From contig NZ_JARGDO010000009.1 in the NCBI RefSeq assembly GCF_029211185.1, forward strand, positions 62,001 through 126,000: 64,000 nucleotides of DNA, in the 5' to 3' direction. The number at the start of each line of letters is the position of its first letter. The first letter of the stretch is position 1. The translations under genes were made by a program, and so were the position numbers. Under the pieces are notes generated by a model, which saw only the letters and a program-made list of their open reading frames with translations, was not told the DNA's origin and made no database searches. Below are positions 57,256 through 63,918 of the stretch, in pieces. This DNA comes from Tessaracoccus caeni. GTDB lineage: Bacteria; Actinomycetota; Actinomycetes; Propionibacteriales; Propionibacteriaceae.

Positions 57256-59949
57256 ATGACGAGCAGCCACACCGACGAGGCAGCGACGAACCTGGAGAGA
57301 TTCGGCGGCAAGGGGGCCAACCTGGTGCGCCTGCGCGACGCGGGCTTCCCGGTCCCGCCCTTCGTGGTGCTCGGCACCGAGGAATACGACGCGTTCGTGG
57401 CCGAGCACGGCCTGAACGTCGAGATCGAACATGCGCTGGACGACGACCATGCCGCCGCCTCGCGTCGCATCCGGGGGGCGTTCCGCCGGCCCTTGTCCGA
57501 GGCGCAACGGGCTCGGATTGCCGAGGCCGTCCGTGCGCTGGGGGACGTGGCCGTCGCCGTCCGGAGTTCCGCGACGGCGGAGGATCTGCCTGATGCGTCG
57601 TTTGCCGGCCAGCAGGACACCTTCCTCGACGTGCGGGGGCTGGATGCCATCCTCGAGGCCGTCGTCGAGTGCTGGTCGAGCCTCTGGACCGAACGCGCCA
57701 TCAGCTATCGCGAGAGCCACGACGTCGACCACGCGGCGGTCAGCCTGGCCGTCGTCATCCAGCAGATGGTGCCCGCCGACGCCTCCGGCGTGATGTTCAC
57801 CGCCGACCCGCTGACCGGCCGACGCGACCGCATCGTCGTCGATGCCGTGCTGGGGTTGGGGGAGCAGCTGGTCTCCGGCCAGGTGGTGCCGGATCACTAC
57901 GAGCTCGACGGTGACGGCGCCATGACCGTATGGCACGTGCACGGCGACGTCAGCGCGCTGAGTCTGCCGCAACTGCGGGCGCTCGGGGCGTTGGGCCGGC
58001 GGATCGCCGAGTCGTTCGGCGCCCCGCAGGACATCGAATGGACTCGGGTAGGCGACGAGTTGCACGTCGTGCAGTCGCGCCCGATCACCAGCCTCTACCC
58101 GTTGCCCGACGGCCCCGGCGACGGCCTGTGGTTTAGTTTCGGGGCATTCCAGGGCATGCTCGAGCCCATCACGCCGCTGGGCCAGGATGCGCTGCGCGCC
58201 ATCGTCAGCGCGGGAGCGCTGCTGTTCGGCGGCAACGCCGATTTCCGCCGCAACCCCTACTTGAAGCCCGCAGGTGGGCGGCTGTGGGTGCGCTTGGACG
58301 ACGCGCTGCGCAACGCTGTCGGGCGTCGTGTCGCGCCCGTCGTGCTGGCGGCGGCCGACCCCAACGGAGCCGCGGTGCTGCGCGACATCCGCGACGAGGC
58401 GGACTACCCGGTGCGGCGCGGCTCCAGCCGCGGGGCCTTGCGACGCATGCTTCCGTTCCTGCGGCGGATCGCGCCCAAGATCGTTCGCGCGCTGCGCCGT
58501 CCGGAGTCCGCGCGACGGACGATCGACGTCTGGGCCGACAAGGTCGTGGGCAACTTCGAGTTCCGGTTGCGCGAGATCGACGGGCTTTCGGAGCCGCGTG
58601 CGCGGTGCGCCGCGAGGGTCGAGGCGGTGGAGACCTTCGCGGCCTCAGCACTGCCGACGTTGCTTCCGCTGTTCGCCCCGGTGATGTCGGTGGGTGTGCT
58701 GGGCACCCTGCGTCTGCGTGCCCTGGCGCGCTCGACAGGTCTGGACGACGCTGACCGGCTCGCCCTCGGCGCGTTGCGTGCTCTCCCTGGGAATGTCACC
58801 ACGGAGATGGATCTGGCGCTGTGGCGTGCCACCCAGGCGATCCGCCGCGATCATGCGTCCGTGGAGGCCTTTGCCGCCGACCCCGAGGAACTCGCCGAGC
58901 GCTACCTGCGTCGCGAACTGCCCGTCCCCGCTCAGACGGCGATCGAGGGGTTCATGGGCCGCTACGGCATGCGCGGCGTCGCAGAGATCGACATGGGCGT
59001 GCCGCGCTGGCGCGAGCGACCCGATGGCGTCCTACGCACCATCCACTCCTATCTGACGCTGTCCGCTGAGGATGCGCCGGACGTCGCCTATGAGCGGGCG
59101 GGTCGCGAGGCTCTCGACGACATGGCCAGGCTCGCCCGTGAGGTCGGGCGCGTGCGCGGGATGCAGGTTCGCTTCCTGGGGCGACGGGTGCGCGCGTTGT
59201 TCGGGGCTCGGGAGACGCCGAAGTTCGTGCTGGTCCAGGGCCTCGGGCTGTTGCGCGAGGCATTCCGCGACACCGGCCAGGATCTCGTCGAACTCGGTGT
59301 CCTGGACGACGCGGACGACATCTTCTTCCTCCACCTCGACGAGCTGGTGCCCGCCTTCGACGGCGGCAGCCGCGCCGCTCTGGTTCCTGCCGTCGATGGC
59401 GGCAGCCTCGCTGCTCTGGTTCCTGCCGTCGATGGCGGCAGCCTCGCTGCTCTGGGTCCTGCCTTTGATGGTGGCAGCTTCGACGCTCTGGGTCCTGCCT
59501 TTGCCGGTGGCAGTCTCGCCGAGGTTGTGGCCGAACGACGCCAGGAGCGGGCCCGAGAGTCGCGACGACGCCGGGTGCCCGTCGCGCTGGTGGGAGACGG
59601 TCGCGCGCTGTTCGGGGGTTCCTCCGCCGGGGTCGCCGATCTCACCGGGATGGGTGTCTCGCCGGGCGTCATCGAGGGCGTCGCCCGAGTGGTGGATCAC
59701 CCGGAAAGCTCCGCGCTGGAGCCGGGGGAGATCATGGTCTGCCGTGGCACCGACCCGGCCTGGACCCCCTTGTTCCTGACGGCGTCCGGCTTGGTGACCG
59801 AGGTCGGAGGCCTGATGACCCACGGCTCCGTCGTCGCAAGGGAATACGGCCTCCCGGCGGTGGTGGGAATCGTCGGAGCCACCGAACGCATCCCCACCGG
59901 AAGCCGCATCCGCCTCGACGGCTCCACGGGCACCATCACGCTCCTGTAA
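57256..59949 (+). CDS. PEP-synthase/rifampin-phosphotransferase-like enzyme
   Basis: Three-domain PEP-utilising enzyme, 897 residues. Residues 1-285 are the ATP-grasp PPDK_N domain (FGGKGANLVRLRDAGFPVPP, VAVRSSATAEDLPDASFAGQ, FTADPLTGRRDRIVVDAVLG). The middle (about 300-690) resembles the substrate domain of the rifampin-phosphotransferase type rather than a PEP TIM barrel. The end is the swivelling phosphohistidine domain, with catalytic His about 856 in VGGLMTHGSVVAREYGLPAV. Gly/Ala-rich 12-residue repeats (about 697-756) in the linker come from a 36-bp minisatellite. It transfers phosphate from ATP to a small substrate, possibly an antibiotic; that is an inference. Confidence 0.8.
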   Translation: MTSSHTDEAATNLERFGGKGANLVRLRDAGFPVPPFVVLGTEEYDAFVAEHGLNVEIEHALDDDHAAASRRIRGAFRRPLSEAQRARIAEAVRALGDVAVAVRSSATAEDLPDASFAGQQDTFLDVRGLDAILEAVVECWSSLWTERAISYRESHDVDHAAVSLAVVIQQMVPADASGVMFTADPLTGRRDRIVVDAVLGLGEQLVSGQVVPDHYELDGDGAMTVWHVHGDVSALSLPQLRALGALGRRIAESFGAPQDIEWTRVGDELHVVQSRPITSLYPLPDGPGDGLWFSFGAFQGMLEPITPLGQDALRAIVSAGALLFGGNADFRRNPYLKPAGGRLWVRLDDALRNAVGRRVAPVVLAAADPNGAAVLRDIRDEADYPVRRGSSRGALRRMLPFLRRIAPKIVRALRRPESARRTIDVWADKVVGNFEFRLREIDGLSEPRARCAARVEAVETFAASALPTLLPLFAPVMSVGVLGTLRLRALARSTGLDDADRLALGALRALPGNVTTEMDLALWRATQAIRRDHASVEAFAADPEELAERYLRRELPVPAQTAIEGFMGRYGMRGVAEIDMGVPRWRERPDGVLRTIHSYLTLSAEDAPDVAYERAGREALDDMARLAREVGRVRGMQVRFLGRRVRALFGARETPKFVLVQGLGLLREAFRDTGQDLVELGVLDDADDIFFLHLDELVPAFDGGSRAALVPAVDGGSLAALVPAVDGGSLAALGPAFDGGSFDALGPAFAGGSLAEVVAERRQERARESRRRRVPVALVGDGRALFGGSSAGVADLTGMGVSPGVIEGVARVVDHPESSALEPGEIMVCRGTDPAWTPLFLTASGLVTEVGGLMTHGSVVAREYGLPAVVGIVGATERIPTGSRIRLDGSTGTITLL
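59344..59523 (+). repeat. In-frame 36-bp minisatellite (five units)
   Basis: Five units, LVPAFDGGSRAA-like, twelve codons each: units 2 and 3 are identical at DNA level, units 4 and 5 are diverged (GTTCCTGCC becomes GGTCCTGCC). They lengthen the hinge before the phosphohistidine domain. Copy number could vary between strains. Confidence 0.85.
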
Positions 59950-59963
59950 GGCTGAGTCGTCGA

Positions 59964-60197
59964 CGGTGCGGTGGAGCAGGTTCTCGCGCTCCTTGTGGTG
60001 CGAGCGAAGCGTGCTGCTGACGGTGTGGTGGAGCAGGTTCTTACGCTCCTTGTGGTGCGAGCGAAGCGAGCCACTGACGTAGGCGTGGTGGAGCCGATTC
60101 TTACGCTCCTGTGGTGCGAGTGAAGCGAGCCGCAGACAGCGTGGTCGAGCAGATTCCCACGCTCCTTGAGGTGCGAGCGAAGCGAGCCTCGAAAGGG
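59964..60197. repeat. Tandem array of 56-60-bp hairpin units
   Basis: Four units of the form GTGGAGCAGGTTC...CGCTCCTTG(T/A)GGTGCGAG...CGAAGCGAGC at 59971, 60028, 60088 and 60144, spaced 57, 60 and 56 bases. Each contains the dispersed hairpin half CGCTCCTTGAGGTGCGAG found at 41009, and the last unit ends like it in AGCCTCGAAAGGG. The array starts directly after the PEP-enzyme stop and may act as a terminator or as the scar of slippage. No protein is encoded. Bases 60200-60330 hold no feature. Confidence 0.85.
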
Positions 60198-60331
60198 CGT
60201 TACCGTGGGCAGGGATTTGTGTCGCGCCCGTCTTTGGGCTGTCGCTCGCTTCGAAGCGCCTCCCAGGTTCGTTCTGTCAGTGCTCGACGATCAGCGAGGC
60301 TGAATCCGTCACCGCTTGGGCTCATCCATGC

Positions 60332-60421
60332 TCAGCGGGGTTGTGAATATCAGCATGCTGATATTCACAACCCCGCTGATGCGAGATCGCAGTGCAACTG
60401 AACGGAATCAACCCCGATAAG
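60332..60421. repeat. Perfect 48-bp palindrome plus conserved tail, left of the STAND gene
   Basis: TCAGCGGGGTTGTGAATATC pairs exactly with its complement around the central CAGCATGCTG, 60332-60379 (48 bp, centre GCATGC). A 46-bp tail overlapping its last bases (60376-60421, CTGATGCGAGATCGC...GATAAG) matches the downstream copy at 63837-63882 in 39 of 46 bases. Confidence 0.85.
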
Positions 60422-60601
60422 GCGTAACGACCGGACGCTGCGGTCGAGCAAAACGTCTCCCTCAAACGCCTGGTCTGCGTCCGCGTGGGGTAAGCGGTTC
60501 GAACAACGCGGGAATGTTCTGGCCAGGTGGCGGTGAATCCGGGAACCAGGCACCGTCGGACATCCGCGCCGGTAACGTGTGACCCGTCGATAGGGGGACG
60601 G

Positions 60602-62878
60602 ATGTCGAAGGTGTCGTCGATCGTGAGCGCGGCGGTGCCGTGGGTCTTGGGAGTGTTCGGAGTGCCGCCCCTCGTTGCTGAGGGTGCTGGTGTTGTCGCT
60701 GCGGGGGTTGACACTGTTGTCGAGGCCGGGAAGGCAAGCGCGGCCCGCAACAGAGAGTTGCAGGCCTTCGTCGCGAAGGCTGCCGAGAGTTTCGAGGAGC
60801 AGTGCGGCCGCGAGATCACCCACCTGGGTGACTACGACCGAGAAGTCGTCGAGAAGCGGATGCGCGAGTTGCTGCAGGCAGCGGATCGTGACGCGATGCT
60901 CGGTGCGGCGCTGATCGGATACGACGAGTTCCAGCTCCGGCTCTTTGGTACGGAGGCGTGCGCCGGACTGGACGACGATGGTCGCGGATACCTTGTTGCA
61001 CTCTGTGGCCACGTCCACGGATTGGTGTTGTCCTTCGCCCAATCTGACGCTGTTCTCGGCGTTGCCAGTACGACGGCGATCAGGATCATCTGGCGAGAGT
61101 TGGCATCGCGCCCGACGCTCGATCAGGTGCAGCTACTGATCAGGCAGGCGATCTCGGGAGAGGTCGAGAAGCGGCGACACGTCGTGGGGTCTCGCCCGCG
61201 ATTGGCAGCTGGCTTCGTCACGCGCAACGAGATGCCCGCGCTGAGGGACGCGCTGGATCAGTCTGGGGTCGCGACGGTCTCCGCCTTGCAGGGCATGCGG
61301 GGTGCGGGCAAGTCGCAGTTGGCGTCGGCATACGCGGAGGCTTGCGAGAACGACCTCTGGCGATTCGTCGGCTGGATAACCGCCTCCACTCGTGAGCAGG
61401 CGATCACCGAGTTGGCGGCAGCGGCCCAGTCCACCGGCATCTCTGACGAAGAGATCCCGGAGAAGGCCGCCAGGCAACTACTCGCCTGGCTGAGTAGCGC
61501 CGGACCAGAGCCACGACTGCTGGTGTTCGACAATGTGAACAGCGCGGACGACGTCACCGACCTGATTCCTACCGGGCCCGGCATGCGGGTGATCGTCACC
61601 ACCACGCGCAAGGCAACTGCGCTGGGAAAACCCGTCGAAATCGGCGTCTACACGCCTCAGCAGGCCATCGACTACTTGCAGGACGCCACCGACGTTCGAG
61701 ACGAAGAAGGCGCGGGTGCCGTTGCCGAAGATCTGGGACGACTGCCGGTCGCGCTGACCCAGGCGGCGGTCGTGATCAAGGGACGCAACTATGACTTCCG
61801 CCGGTATCGGGAACTGCTATCCAGTGGCCGGGGGCTCGACAGGGTGGTTGAGACGGAAGACGGCGCCTATCCCCAGTTGGTCGGTGTGGCACTGCGGCTG
61901 GCGTACACCGATGTGCTGAAGGGCTTGCCCGGCGAAGTGTCGGATGCGGCAGAGCACGTGCTGGGGGCCCTGGCGCTGTTGGCCGAGCCGGGCGTGCCCC
62001 GTGAGTGGCTACGCGGGCTTGGGGACGATGAGTTCGTGGTCGACGAGACGGTGGGCGCCCTAGTCAAGAACTCGATCCTGATCGAGTCCGAGGACCGACG
62101 CATCGTCTCGCTGCACCGGCTACAGGCCCAGGTGATCCGTGAGGACTTTGAGGCTCGCAATGAAATGGGGGCCGCCGTTCGAAACGCCTGCGTCGCGATG
62201 CATGGGGCGAGTTGGTATGTCGCGAATACCTACCTGGTGGAGCGGGACAATAACCGTGAGATAGCTAGTCAGTTCGTTGCGGTCAGGGAGCAGTCACACT
62301 CTACATCGCTGATGAATGACGAGGACTGGATGCGACTTGTGGCGGCCGTGGTGTATCGGTCAAGTCAGCAGCTCGATCCTTATCCTGCTATCGAACTTGA
62401 GGGCTACCTGGAAGATGTAAATAGAGTATTAGGAGCCGATTGTCGAGAAGCTCTTATGTTCTGTAACAATCTCGGTGTCGTCTACGAGTTGGTAGGTGAT
62501 CTTGGTCGGGCCCGTTTGTTCTACGAGAGAGCACTGGACGGGCTATCTAAAGTAACAGGAGCTGATCAGTCTGATGTGCTAGCGGCCAGGAATAATCTGG
62601 CTGGTGTTTATCTGTCATCAGGTAATTTGACTCAAGCGGCTTCGATGCTGGAGAGGGTTGTTTGCGATGCAAAACGAGTCTTCGGTGAGAGGCATCCAGA
62701 TACCTTGATGTTTCGGGGCAATCTTGCGAAGGCCTACGAAGCGGTGGGGGATCTGAGTAGAGCATCTGTGCTGTTCGATAGGCTTACGGAAGATACGTCG
62801 CGCATCCTGGGGAGCGGTGATCAGCGCACGTTTACCGCTCGTAGCGGGCTCGCGCGTGCGTATAAGGAGCAAGGGTGA
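60602..62878 (+). CDS. STAND NTPase with TPR repeats, N-terminal part before a frameshift
   Basis: NLR-like signal-transduction ATPase, 758 residues to the early stop. The ATG at 60602 has GGGGGACGG upstream. Residues 1-190 are an uncharacterised N-terminal, possibly effector, domain beginning with a hydrophobic segment (IVSAAVPWVLGVFGVPPLVA). The NB-ARC/NTPase has Walker A GMRGAGKSQ (231-239), Walker B LLVFDNV (306-312), VIVTTTR (330-336) and LGRLPVAL (378-385). After about residue 600 come 42-residue TPR units. The frame ends at TGA 62876-62878 in the middle of a TPR; see the next entry. The gene is framed by palindromic repeats. Confidence 0.85.
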   Translation: MSKVSSIVSAAVPWVLGVFGVPPLVAEGAGVVAAGVDTVVEAGKASAARNRELQAFVAKAAESFEEQCGREITHLGDYDREVVEKRMRELLQAADRDAMLGAALIGYDEFQLRLFGTEACAGLDDDGRGYLVALCGHVHGLVLSFAQSDAVLGVASTTAIRIIWRELASRPTLDQVQLLIRQAISGEVEKRRHVVGSRPRLAAGFVTRNEMPALRDALDQSGVATVSALQGMRGAGKSQLASAYAEACENDLWRFVGWITASTREQAITELAAAAQSTGISDEEIPEKAARQLLAWLSSAGPEPRLLVFDNVNSADDVTDLIPTGPGMRVIVTTTRKATALGKPVEIGVYTPQQAIDYLQDATDVRDEEGAGAVAEDLGRLPVALTQAAVVIKGRNYDFRRYRELLSSGRGLDRVVETEDGAYPQLVGVALRLAYTDVLKGLPGEVSDAAEHVLGALALLAEPGVPREWLRGLGDDEFVVDETVGALVKNSILIESEDRRIVSLHRLQAQVIREDFEARNEMGAAVRNACVAMHGASWYVANTYLVERDNNREIASQFVAVREQSHSTSLMNDEDWMRLVAAVVYRSSQQLDPYPAIELEGYLEDVNRVLGADCREALMFCNNLGVVYELVGDLGRARLFYERALDGLSKVTGADQSDVLAARNNLAGVYLSSGNLTQAASMLERVVCDAKRVFGERHPDTLMFRGNLAKAYEAVGDLSRASVLFDRLTEDTSRILGSGDQRTFTARSGLARAYKEQG

Positions 62879-63656
62879 CTGGGGTCGCGCGATCTCGTTG
62901 AATGAGGAACTGATGAGGGACTGTCAGCAGATCTTGGGTCCAGATCATCCTAGGACTGTGCGGATACGGGACGATCTTGCCACTATGTACGAGGCTGCGG
63001 GTCAATTCGAGCGAGCCATCTCATTGCATGCGCGTGCGTTGTGGGATAGCGAGCGGATTCTGGGTGTTGGTCATCCAGTAACGCTTACTTGTAGAAACAA
63101 CCTCGCCTACGCTTACGAGTCGGCGGGTGATTTAGATCGGGCGTTCTCGCTTTACGAACAGACGCTGCTGGATCGCGAACGACTCCTGGGTCTCGATCAT
63201 CCGAGCACCTTGGTGTCTTGTAACAATCTTGCCGGCCTGTATCAGGCGAAGGGAGAGATAGGGAAGGCGGTTTCCTTGTATAAGCGGACGCTGGGGGATA
63301 GGGAGCGCTTCTTGGGGGCTGATCATCCGGACACGTTGATCTCTCTTAATAACCTTGCTGGTGCGTATCGCGCCGCAGGTAATCTGGTTCGAGCTGTACG
63401 TCTCTATGAGCGTGGTTTAGATGAGTGTGGGCGTGTGCTGGGTAAGGAACATGCAACCACTTTGGGGGTGTGGCGAAATCTCGCCGATACATATGGGATG
63501 ATCGGTCGGTGGCGGGAGGCGTTCATGACGCTGGAGGAAGCAGTCAAAGTGTCGAAAAAGGCCTATGGCGCCGAACATCCAATAACTCAAGGTCTATTGG
63601 AACGTAGGGATGCTATCAGTCGTATGGGTGTGTTTTGGGTAGGTGGCGATCATTGA
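62874..63656 (+). pseudogene. Continuation of the STAND/TPR gene in the next frame
   Basis: Removing one G from the GGG at 62873-62875 restores AYKEQGDWGRAISLNEELM, a normal TPR, so this 260-residue part belongs to the same protein (about 1,017 residues in total). It carries five and a half kinesin-light-chain-type TPRs of 42 residues (pattern NNLAxxY...G...A..LYE..L...LG..HP.TL), for a total of nine. This TPR part has many A/T-ended codons and is visibly less GC-rich than the NTPase part. On its own it could start at ATG 62913. Real mutation, phase variation and sequencing error are all possible. Confidence 0.8.
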
Positions 63657-63796
63657 TCTTGACGATTTGTTTGAGCTCGAAAGCTATGGACTGATCAGCC
63701 GCCACGGACTATTGACCCGAATCCTCAAGTAGGGACACGTCCCCGCTGTCGAGGGCGCTCGCAGCAGCGTCGCTGCTCAGGCGTGCGACGGCTCGC

Positions 63797-63882
63797 CCAG
63801 GTTCTGGATGTCAGCATGCTGACGTCAACGACCTGGCTGATCCGAGATCGCGGGGCAGCTGAACGGAATTAACCTGGATAAG
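63797..63882. repeat. Second palindrome-plus-tail element, right of the STAND gene
   Basis: Imperfect 40-bp palindrome with arms CCAGGTTCTGGATGTCAG and CTGACGTCAACGACCTGG around CAGCATGCTG (63797-63836), then a tail CTGATCCGAGATCGC...GATAAG (63837-63882) that matches the left copy. The arms differ in sequence from the left copy but still pair, so structure seems conserved. Bases 63657-63796 show no gene. Confidence 0.8.
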
Positions 63883-63918
63883 ACCGCGCTGGCTTGCGCA
63901 CCGTTGGCTCAGCTCAGC

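Follow-up and report, generated by a model that had tools for sequence, protein, structure and literature searches.

Two Palindromic Elements and the Gene between Them

The window, by which we mean the entire 64,000-nucleotide stretch of Tessaracoccus caeni DNA that was analyzed, contains two copies of a palindromic element, referred to here as Family A, with a STAND/TPR-like gene between them. The features are as follows.

60288..60423, no strand: copy 1 of the Family A element, complete at 136 bp with two-fold symmetry (model R1, both strands)
60290..60312, reverse: outer-left box of copy 1 (reverse-strand match TGACGGATTCAGCCTCGCTGAT, offset equal to that of the right box)
60332..60379, no strand: central perfect palindrome of copy 1, comprising the two inner boxes, 48 bp, 24/24 pairs
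60399..60421, forward: right-hand outer box of copy 1, belonging to the "tail" of the first-pass annotation
60527..62878, forward: first of the two ORFs of the STAND/TPR-like gene between the elements, 783 aa (TPR_12, 4.4e-20; AAA_16, 2.3e-4, below cut-off)
62817..63656, forward: second ORF, 279 aa, TPRs, other frame (TPR_10, 9.8e-55)
63749..63884, no strand: copy 2 of the Family A element, of the CCTGG subtype (model R1)
63793..63840, no strand: central imperfect palindrome of copy 2, 18/24 pairs, centered between 63816 and 63817
63860..63882, forward: outer-right box of copy 2

Both palindromes, the perfect one of 48 bp and the imperfect one, are present as the first-pass annotation had described them. 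The R1 model matches copy 1 (G000:C82:122288-122423) on both strands with scores of 130.8 and 120.3 bits, and copy 2 with 86.3 bits on the forward strand (C82:125749-125884) and 54 bits on the reverse strand (125753-125884); the outer-left box is degenerate in copy 2. Matches to TCAGCATGCTGAYRNNCANARCC, the core pattern, number three in the window versus none in 100 shuffles, and the two places share 77% of their bases across 92 nt (family D4). The annotation had also described a tail with 39 of 46 bases identical. We obtain the same count, but the tail is not a separate feature; it is one half of a symmetric outer pair in a unit of ∼136 bp with four related boxes.

The pair had been taken to enclose a single NB-ARC/TPR gene. 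The TPR matches are indeed strong, but that to an ATPase reaches only 22.2 bits (AAA_16, cut-off 32.6) and is weak, and in the present assembly the gene is frame-broken, lying in two ORFs in different frames. In PADLOC, it gives one weak TPR match only. The two elements belong to different subtypes, one with CCCCG arms and the other with CCTGG arms; they are 63% identical, their mutual similarity ranks 12 and 3 of 25, and neither is the other's nearest relative. Rather than mates, they are probably solo members of a family of REP-like palindromes, with the broken gene apparently a bystander.

A Palindrome Family Dispersed through the Genome

A model search places the Family A element at 27 positions in the source genome, 26 of which match the model on both strands, and at none in a further 59 genomes, among them 35 congeners. 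The arms covary among 17 family members: 84.8% of cells are paired versus 76.8% in shuffles, and the covariation score is 0.275 versus 0.149 for the shuffled arms, with none of 500 shuffles scoring as high and values of 0.03–0.12 when the arms are slid. Pairs changed on both sides number 11 of 22 versus 8.1 expected, and 16 of 500 shuffles reach 11. The earlier statement that different arms still pair is thus borne out, as is its comparison to REP sequences, since the family is dispersed and covarying and the broader picture is like that of REP/RAYT units. That the hairpin is under selection, as also claimed earlier, is likely but not proven, because arm-to-arm correction is also able to produce covarying arms.

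Three identities for the element were considered and set aside. The four boxes and the hairpin suggested integron attC sites, whose ends carry the motif RYYYAAC/GTTRRRY; by reading, these ends are not conserved, and attC was therefore rejected. A simple terminator does not serve as the main explanation for a symmetric element of 136 bp, some copies of which have typical terminators beside them (by eye). Rfam returned only sub-threshold matches to eukaryotic small RNAs, so a small-RNA identity was not adopted. The terminator-like hairpins are separate from the element and were seen, for example, at C33 and C1.

Family A pairs less than 3.5 kb apart are commoner than chance (4 versus 0.58 expected under uniform placement, P = 0.0022), and one matched pair, C82:48625/50000, encloses non-nuclease genes. 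Because of these two observations, occasional capture of cargo by element pairs may occur. A link to defence-like genes, as put forward in the first-pass annotation, was not supported in general. PADLOC at 1e-10 matched 3 of 46 neighbor proteins, scanned with crude gene calls and leaving out the window TPR gene and the two genes described below; the matches are HerA-like at C5, mad2-like at C44:208k, and AbiEii at C44:111k, where a further ORF lies between the gene and the element.

A Candidate Dedicated Gene

Two close copies of one gene adjoin Family A elements. The copy at C5:2440-3396 has an element on both sides, and these two elements are mutually most similar; the copy at C8:24087-25043 has an element on the upstream side only. 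We consider this gene a candidate for the dedicated gene of the family; the earlier description of the cassette as lacking its own transposase holds for the window pair.

The encoded protein joins an AbiEi-antitoxin-like DNA-binding half, with the AbiEi fold and an N-terminal winged helix followed by the core, to a DUF559/EDxHD nuclease-like half. Residues 193-297 have a predicted EDxHD-like fold with conserved E, D, and H residues, and this predicted fold resembles Vsr and I-Bth0305I. Scanning of 34 proteins against Pfam (E ≤ 0.01) gave five families in total, AbiEi_4 in 21, DUF559 in 18, AbiEi_1 in 7, and MTES_1575 and AbiEi_3_N in 1 each; the HUH tyrosine (Y1) transposase domain was found in none. 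In the cases read, the AbiEi-DUF559 gene is free-standing. The two called neighbors of the C5 copy are HerA-like and transaldolase-like, and neither is AbiEii.

Palindromes Flanking Related Genes

The same palindrome lies on both sides of 29 of the 63 AbiEi-DUF559-type genes of the genus, as compared to 0 of 126 control genes; 60 of the 63 loci had 300 bp or more of sequence on either side, and 43 had a palindrome. The best match within the 29 pairs is direct in 19 and inverted in 10. The flanking sequence varies from gene to gene; a comparison of palindromes with proteins gave r = 0.081 (117 of 2000) across 38 loci, 9 of which are one-sided palindromes picked by eye.

Five palindrome families were counted, each flanking its own AbiEi-DUF559 gene, and all five are dispersed. 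Four of them occupy 27 (Family A), 6, 12 (the G001 family), and 21 places per genome, and the G001 family has 10 places away from the gene for a single gene. The G001 genome also contains two identical palindromes 3.1 kb apart without a listed nuclease gene in between. Dispersal of the counted families was seen only in genomes with a related gene, with one weak exception, and searches with Family A and the G001 family found each palindrome in a single genome of the genus. At one site a gene-plus-palindromes unit is present, and two relatives lack it at the syntenic position. The pattern is likewise present in another actinomycete, Tsukamurella tyrosinosolvens NCTC13231, in which the neighboring genes encode a LysE transporter and a protein that binds NAD(P)H.

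A Possible Class of REP-like Mobile Units

These observations are best read as REP/RAYT-like selfish units in which a restriction-type nuclease replaces the HUH transposase. We think it probable that the window hairpins are solo REP-like copies of a family whose dedicated AbiEi-DUF559 gene lies elsewhere in the genome and whose spread depends on the nuclease. The association of palindromes and genes is established by the observations above; that the nuclease mobilizes them we infer. The protein itself would bind its private palindrome as a dimer, with one winged helix per arm, and the nuclease half would cut or nick this palindrome, or the hairpin that it forms. Both the palindrome-gene-palindrome unit and bare palindromes could then spread through repair or re-insertion, and every gene lineage would come to have its own, fast-changing palindrome. 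Since each gene brings its own predicted DNA target, the idea is directly testable.

The broader proposal, that AbiEi-EDxHD nuclease genes between private palindromes form an undescribed class of small bacterial mobile DNA, with the nuclease as the mover of units and bare palindromes alike and REP-like populations invented a second time, is tentative, its chances being a little short of even. In the literature covered, from which subscription papers were mostly absent, we found nothing that connects DUF559/AbiEi genes with dispersed palindromes. If the proposal is true, selfish elements rather than antitoxins would lie behind many of the gene labels "DUF559 domain-containing" and "AbiEi family antitoxin domain-containing". 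REP-like repeats would have an independent origin, DUF559 would have a function, and some predicted type IV antitoxins would be misannotated.

REP repeats are widespread in bacteria. The closest likeness is to the REPtron (RAYT or TnpA-REP with REP/REPIN), which shares the single gene flanked by palindromes, the dispersed, genome-specific solo copies that are sometimes in tandem, and the compensatory stems. RAYT, however, is an HUH tyrosine transposase, whereas the gene here encodes the AbiEi-like and EDxHD/DUF559-like halves. In IS200/IS605 elements, too, one gene is accompanied by a subterminal hairpin at either end; the units differ in that no HUH/Y1 domain was detected in the 34 proteins and in hairpins that are also widespread on their own. 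They resemble EDxHD homing endonucleases and Vsr in the fold predicted for residues 193-297 and in the conserved E, D, and H residues, but here dispersed palindromes flank the gene and the N-terminal half is AbiEi-like. In comparison to the AbiEi antitoxin of the type IV toxin-antitoxin system AbiE, the protein has an extra nuclease-like domain, and neither called neighbor at C5 is an AbiEii. The portions of the REP literature consulted describe the HUH RAYT as the dedicated partner of REPs and also report CGTC-tagged REPs without a dedicated transposase (PMC3733652), and I-Bth0305I is described, in the part of its report available, as binding a long target as a dimer (PMC3943268).

An unlikely alternative is that movement is confined to the complete palindrome-gene-palindrome unit, driven by the nuclease, homing, or another enzyme, and that flank recombination then deletes the gene to leave solos, as with solo LTRs. 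The unit missing from the syntenic site in two relatives and the 19 direct pairs fit this account; however, such deletion is impossible for the 10 inverted pairs, and solos exceed genes both in Family A (27 places, two genes) and in the G001 family. It is improbable that the palindromes are immobile regulatory sites of an AbiEi-type repressor, serving upstream autoregulation, downstream termination, and a scattered regulon. AbiEi is described, in the part of the source consulted, as repressing its own promoter through inverted repeats (PMC3985639), and none of the 27 Family A places has its center inside a called gene, but a regulatory role does not sit well with palindromes of one family both upstream and downstream of 29 genes, the separate terminator-like hairpins, the nuclease-like domain, the joint absence of gene and palindromes at one site, or the finding of palindromes in single genomes of the genus.

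Distinctly improbable, too, is an unrelated mover such as a RAYT or IS200/IS605-type HUH transposase, beside whose palindromes AbiEi-DUF559 genes hitch-hike or preferentially insert. The link of REP families to HUH RAYTs, as given in the portions seen of PMC3733652, speaks for it; the gene-specific palindromes around each counted gene and the lack of a Y1 domain in all 34 proteins speak against it. Finally, the proposal of the first-pass annotation that the two window elements delimit a STAND/TPR immunity module able to transpose or be exchanged can draw on the excess of close pairs, the C82:48625/50000 pair, and the paired G001 palindromes, but is very improbable given mates of different subtypes and low mutual rank around a broken gene.

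Wider Searches

Scanning a genome contig collection with the core pattern gave 16 stretches in scattered taxa, with one match each and none named actinobacterial, and viral contigs gave one more; source-near records were possibly excluded from the genome collection, and we take all these matches as chance. The C8 protein had no match in the same collection, with the same possible exclusion. Searches by tblastn identified one phage homologue, on an unannotated scaffold without a palindrome pair. Among plasmids, neither the C8 protein nor L134 gave a match; L138 gave one, and the Tsukamurella protein matched 15 records, 14 of them partial and at <60% identity.

Palindrome Pair of the Window

The two palindromic sites of the window are copies of one 136-bp element, family A:

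60288..60423, family A element, copy 1
63749..63884, family A element, copy 2

The 48-bp palindrome described in the first-pass annotation (60332-60379) is indeed perfect, and the second, centred at 63816/63817, is imperfect as reported, with 18 of 24 positions paired. The two sites are 77% identical over 92 nt, and the window contains three matches to the core pattern, against none in 100 shuffles. The sequence annotated as a tail is real, but it belongs to a symmetric outer pair, of which it is the right half; four related boxes make up the ~136-bp unit, the outer ones beginning ~41 bp outside the inner ones, and the information per position drops near background beyond ~68 bp from the centre (54 half-elements). 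The stems do covary, as had been noticed (score of 0.275 versus 0.149 when shuffled; 0 of 500 shuffles as high), but this alone leaves the proposed selection on the hairpin unproven, since arm-to-arm correction of near-palindromes could also yield covariation. Other repeats of the window are direct repeats at 59937-60188, with 56-60 bp spacing and a GTGCGAGCGAAGCGAGC core, directly after a PPDK-like gene (four matches in the window versus 0.10 expected), and a 36-bp tandem repeat within the PPDK-like gene (59334-59513).

A covariance model built on 17 copies (E ≤ 0.01) places family A at 27 positions in the genome holding the window (4.16 Mb, 82 contigs; the window is C82:62001-126000), 26 of them matched on both strands. 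Under stricter filters, the model restricts the family to this genome among 60, including 35 congeners. The exact core pattern, searched in contigs of 84,980 species, a set from which close relatives may have been left out, gives 16 single matches, scattered over taxa that have no obvious relationship. At none of the 27 places does a called gene run across the element's centre, though the crude calling misses atypical genes. At C2:64613 (L079:2590-2650), a long G run and then a C run take the place of the centre, which looks like a failure of sequencing or assembly at the hairpin.

Neighbouring copies lie close together more often than uniform placement predicts, with four pairs <3.5 kb apart (0.58 expected, P = 0.0022) and three <1.6 kb apart (0.28 expected, P = 0.0024). 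When mates are ranked by similarity among 25 copies, C2:64613 being left out, each mate is the other's closest or second-closest copy in three pairs, on contigs C5 and C8 and at C82:48625/50000. The window mates are 63% identical, rank 12 and 3, and are not each other's nearest. The gene they enclose, annotated as NB-ARC/TPR, does encode a TPR protein, but its ATPase match is sub-threshold and it is split over two frames. These observations suggest that the gene is a chance occupant between two solo elements, meaning copies away from any partner gene, and they argue against the transposable or exchangeable STAND/TPR immunity cassette proposed initially. The frame change (62817-62878) could reflect real decay or an assembly error. 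The mutual-nearest pair at C82:48625-50000 (L022:3126-4501) has between its mates no nuclease gene but an F420-dependent oxidoreductase and an HxlR regulator, and is possibly a case of cargo capture.

A link of the elements to defence-like genes had also been anticipated. We scanned 46 neighbour proteins from crude gene calls, not counting the window TPR gene or the AbiEi-DUF559 genes discussed below; three match PADLOC at 1e-10.

Neighbour proteins of family A matching PADLOC
C5: HerA-like protein, beside family A
C44:208k: mad2-like protein, beside family A
C44:111k (L077:368-1321): AbiEii toxin-like ORF, separated from a family A element by ~1 kb that includes another ORF

The Pfam names of the neighbours are mostly metabolic (first 25 of 80 families at 1e-5). 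Together with the three PADLOC matches, this indicates that family A has no general tie to defence genes.

A Candidate Partner Gene with a Nuclease-like Half

Between the C5 mates lies a gene of 319-329 aa that joins an AbiEi-antitoxin-like DNA-binding half to a DUF559/EDxHD nuclease-like half; its stop codon falls within an additional box immediately beyond the 136-bp unit of the downstream element. The C8 copy is 76% identical and has a family A element on its upstream side only. Two more paralogs, at C13 and C11, show 32-33% identity. The former carries one in-frame stop and lies between copies of another palindrome, family B, which is dispersed over six places, two of them these flanks; a flank scan of the C11 paralog found no palindrome. 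Family A at C5/C8 and family B at C13 led to the hypothesis that every gene has its own palindrome. A third family, CCAGTGGGAGATGTTCCACCG..., occurs at C8:52833 (L160) and C22:21315 (L161) and has the GTTCCACCG core in common with family B.

We scanned the flanks of all 63 AbiEi-DUF559 genes found in 25 of 39 genomes (E ≤ 1e-20; one genome per species), with at least 300 bp available on both sides in 60. A palindrome (≥13 pairs, no more than 350 bp away) is present at 43 loci, and the same palindrome (at least 75% identity) lies on both sides of 29 genes in 17 genomes, 18 of them at ≥90% identity. Among 126 other genes of 0.5-1.5 kb, drawn from 35 loci with known AbiEi-DUF559 stretches left out, 45 have a palindrome and none has a pair (Fisher P = 6e-17, the 63 genes being non-independent, with many paralogs or genes of related species among them). 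Of 600 random segments, 77 have a palindrome and two have pairs, both around one of the AbiEi-DUF559 genes themselves. In four of the 29 flanked genes, the matched part is interrupted by an in-frame stop.

The flanking palindromes vary in sequence between genes. Counting against the hypothesis that every gene has its own palindrome, none was found at 20 of the 63 loci, and palindrome similarity correlates poorly with protein similarity (r = 0.081; 117 of 2000 permutations as high; 38 loci). The two track each other for close relatives only, the median palindrome score being 16 for the nine pairs at ~60% or more identity versus 7 for the rest. Beside some genes, tandem palindromes recur regularly, every 73-74, 83-84, or 61-62 bp; at L148, L054, L056, and L047 the spacings are 73-74 or 83 bp.

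Dispersal in Relatives

In G001, a congener, the palindrome of one such gene (C1:806055-806924) occurs at 12 places, two of them its flanks, with no match in the other 38 genomes; its two subtypes have compensatory stems, with 237 of 240 cells paired. The same genome holds two identical palindromes 3.1 kb apart (C1:1064682-1067894; L265:2183-5396) around other ORFs, none a listed AbiEi-DUF559 gene. The palindrome of a second relative, G061, occupies 21 distinct places there, 16 in G031, 13 in G029, and one weakly matched in G035, and none in the other 35 genomes. Related genes are present in G031 (71% protein identity) and G029 (70% DNA identity), where the gene-bearing 3-kb stretch yielded no G061-type palindrome; in G014, a related gene is likewise accompanied by related palindromes, yet the G061 query has no match there.

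The G061 gene, which has two in-frame stops, sits with its palindromes inside ~1.4 kb between two conserved neighbours, whose matches lie ~80 bp apart in G031, ~14 bp in G014, and ~790 bp in G029. The related genes of these three genomes are located elsewhere; therefore, over such a time scale there has been movement of the unit or of its location. The junctions are too diverged to reveal target duplication. In G029 (C121, 10664 to 11452; L247), the gap is filled by a VapBC-like pair, labelled by eye from the DNA; neither pair nor unit is found in G031 or G014. The spot is possibly an insertion hotspot.

Proposed Mechanism and Known Systems

AbiEi is reported to bind inverted repeats, repressing its own promoter (PMC3985639), and I-Bth0305I to form a dimer on its target of nearly 60 bp (PMC3943268). 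Most simply, a protein with an AbiEi-like and a nuclease-like half, encoded between two 40-50-bp palindrome copies, is predicted to bind and cut them. New copies might then arise either by transfer of the hairpin, the route suggested for RAYTs, or by repair-coupled copying. The main rival is that the whole unit alone moves and that solo palindromes are deletion scars. The system shares the architecture of the REPtron, as described in PMC3733652; the HUH transposase that defines REPtrons is, however, absent from the 34 proteins scanned here, and the system is thus REPtron-like, not a REPtron. It has a fair chance of meriting a separate class.

A phage-scaffold homologue has no such palindrome pair in its flanks. 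A tblastn search of plasmid records with one genus member gave a single match, which makes it one case rather than a survey: a DUF559 gene of Tsukamurella tyrosinosolvens NCTC13231 (NZ_LR134454.1), whose protein is 26.6% identical to the query and which carries the same 41-bp palindrome on both flanks, 93% identical and inverted. Among 72,556 plasmid records, this palindrome occurs in three, all of NCTC13231, at five places (strands counted apart); in the two other records, "plasmid 9" and "plasmid 22", its neighbours are annotated genes, none of them a nuclease gene over the 2 kb displayed.
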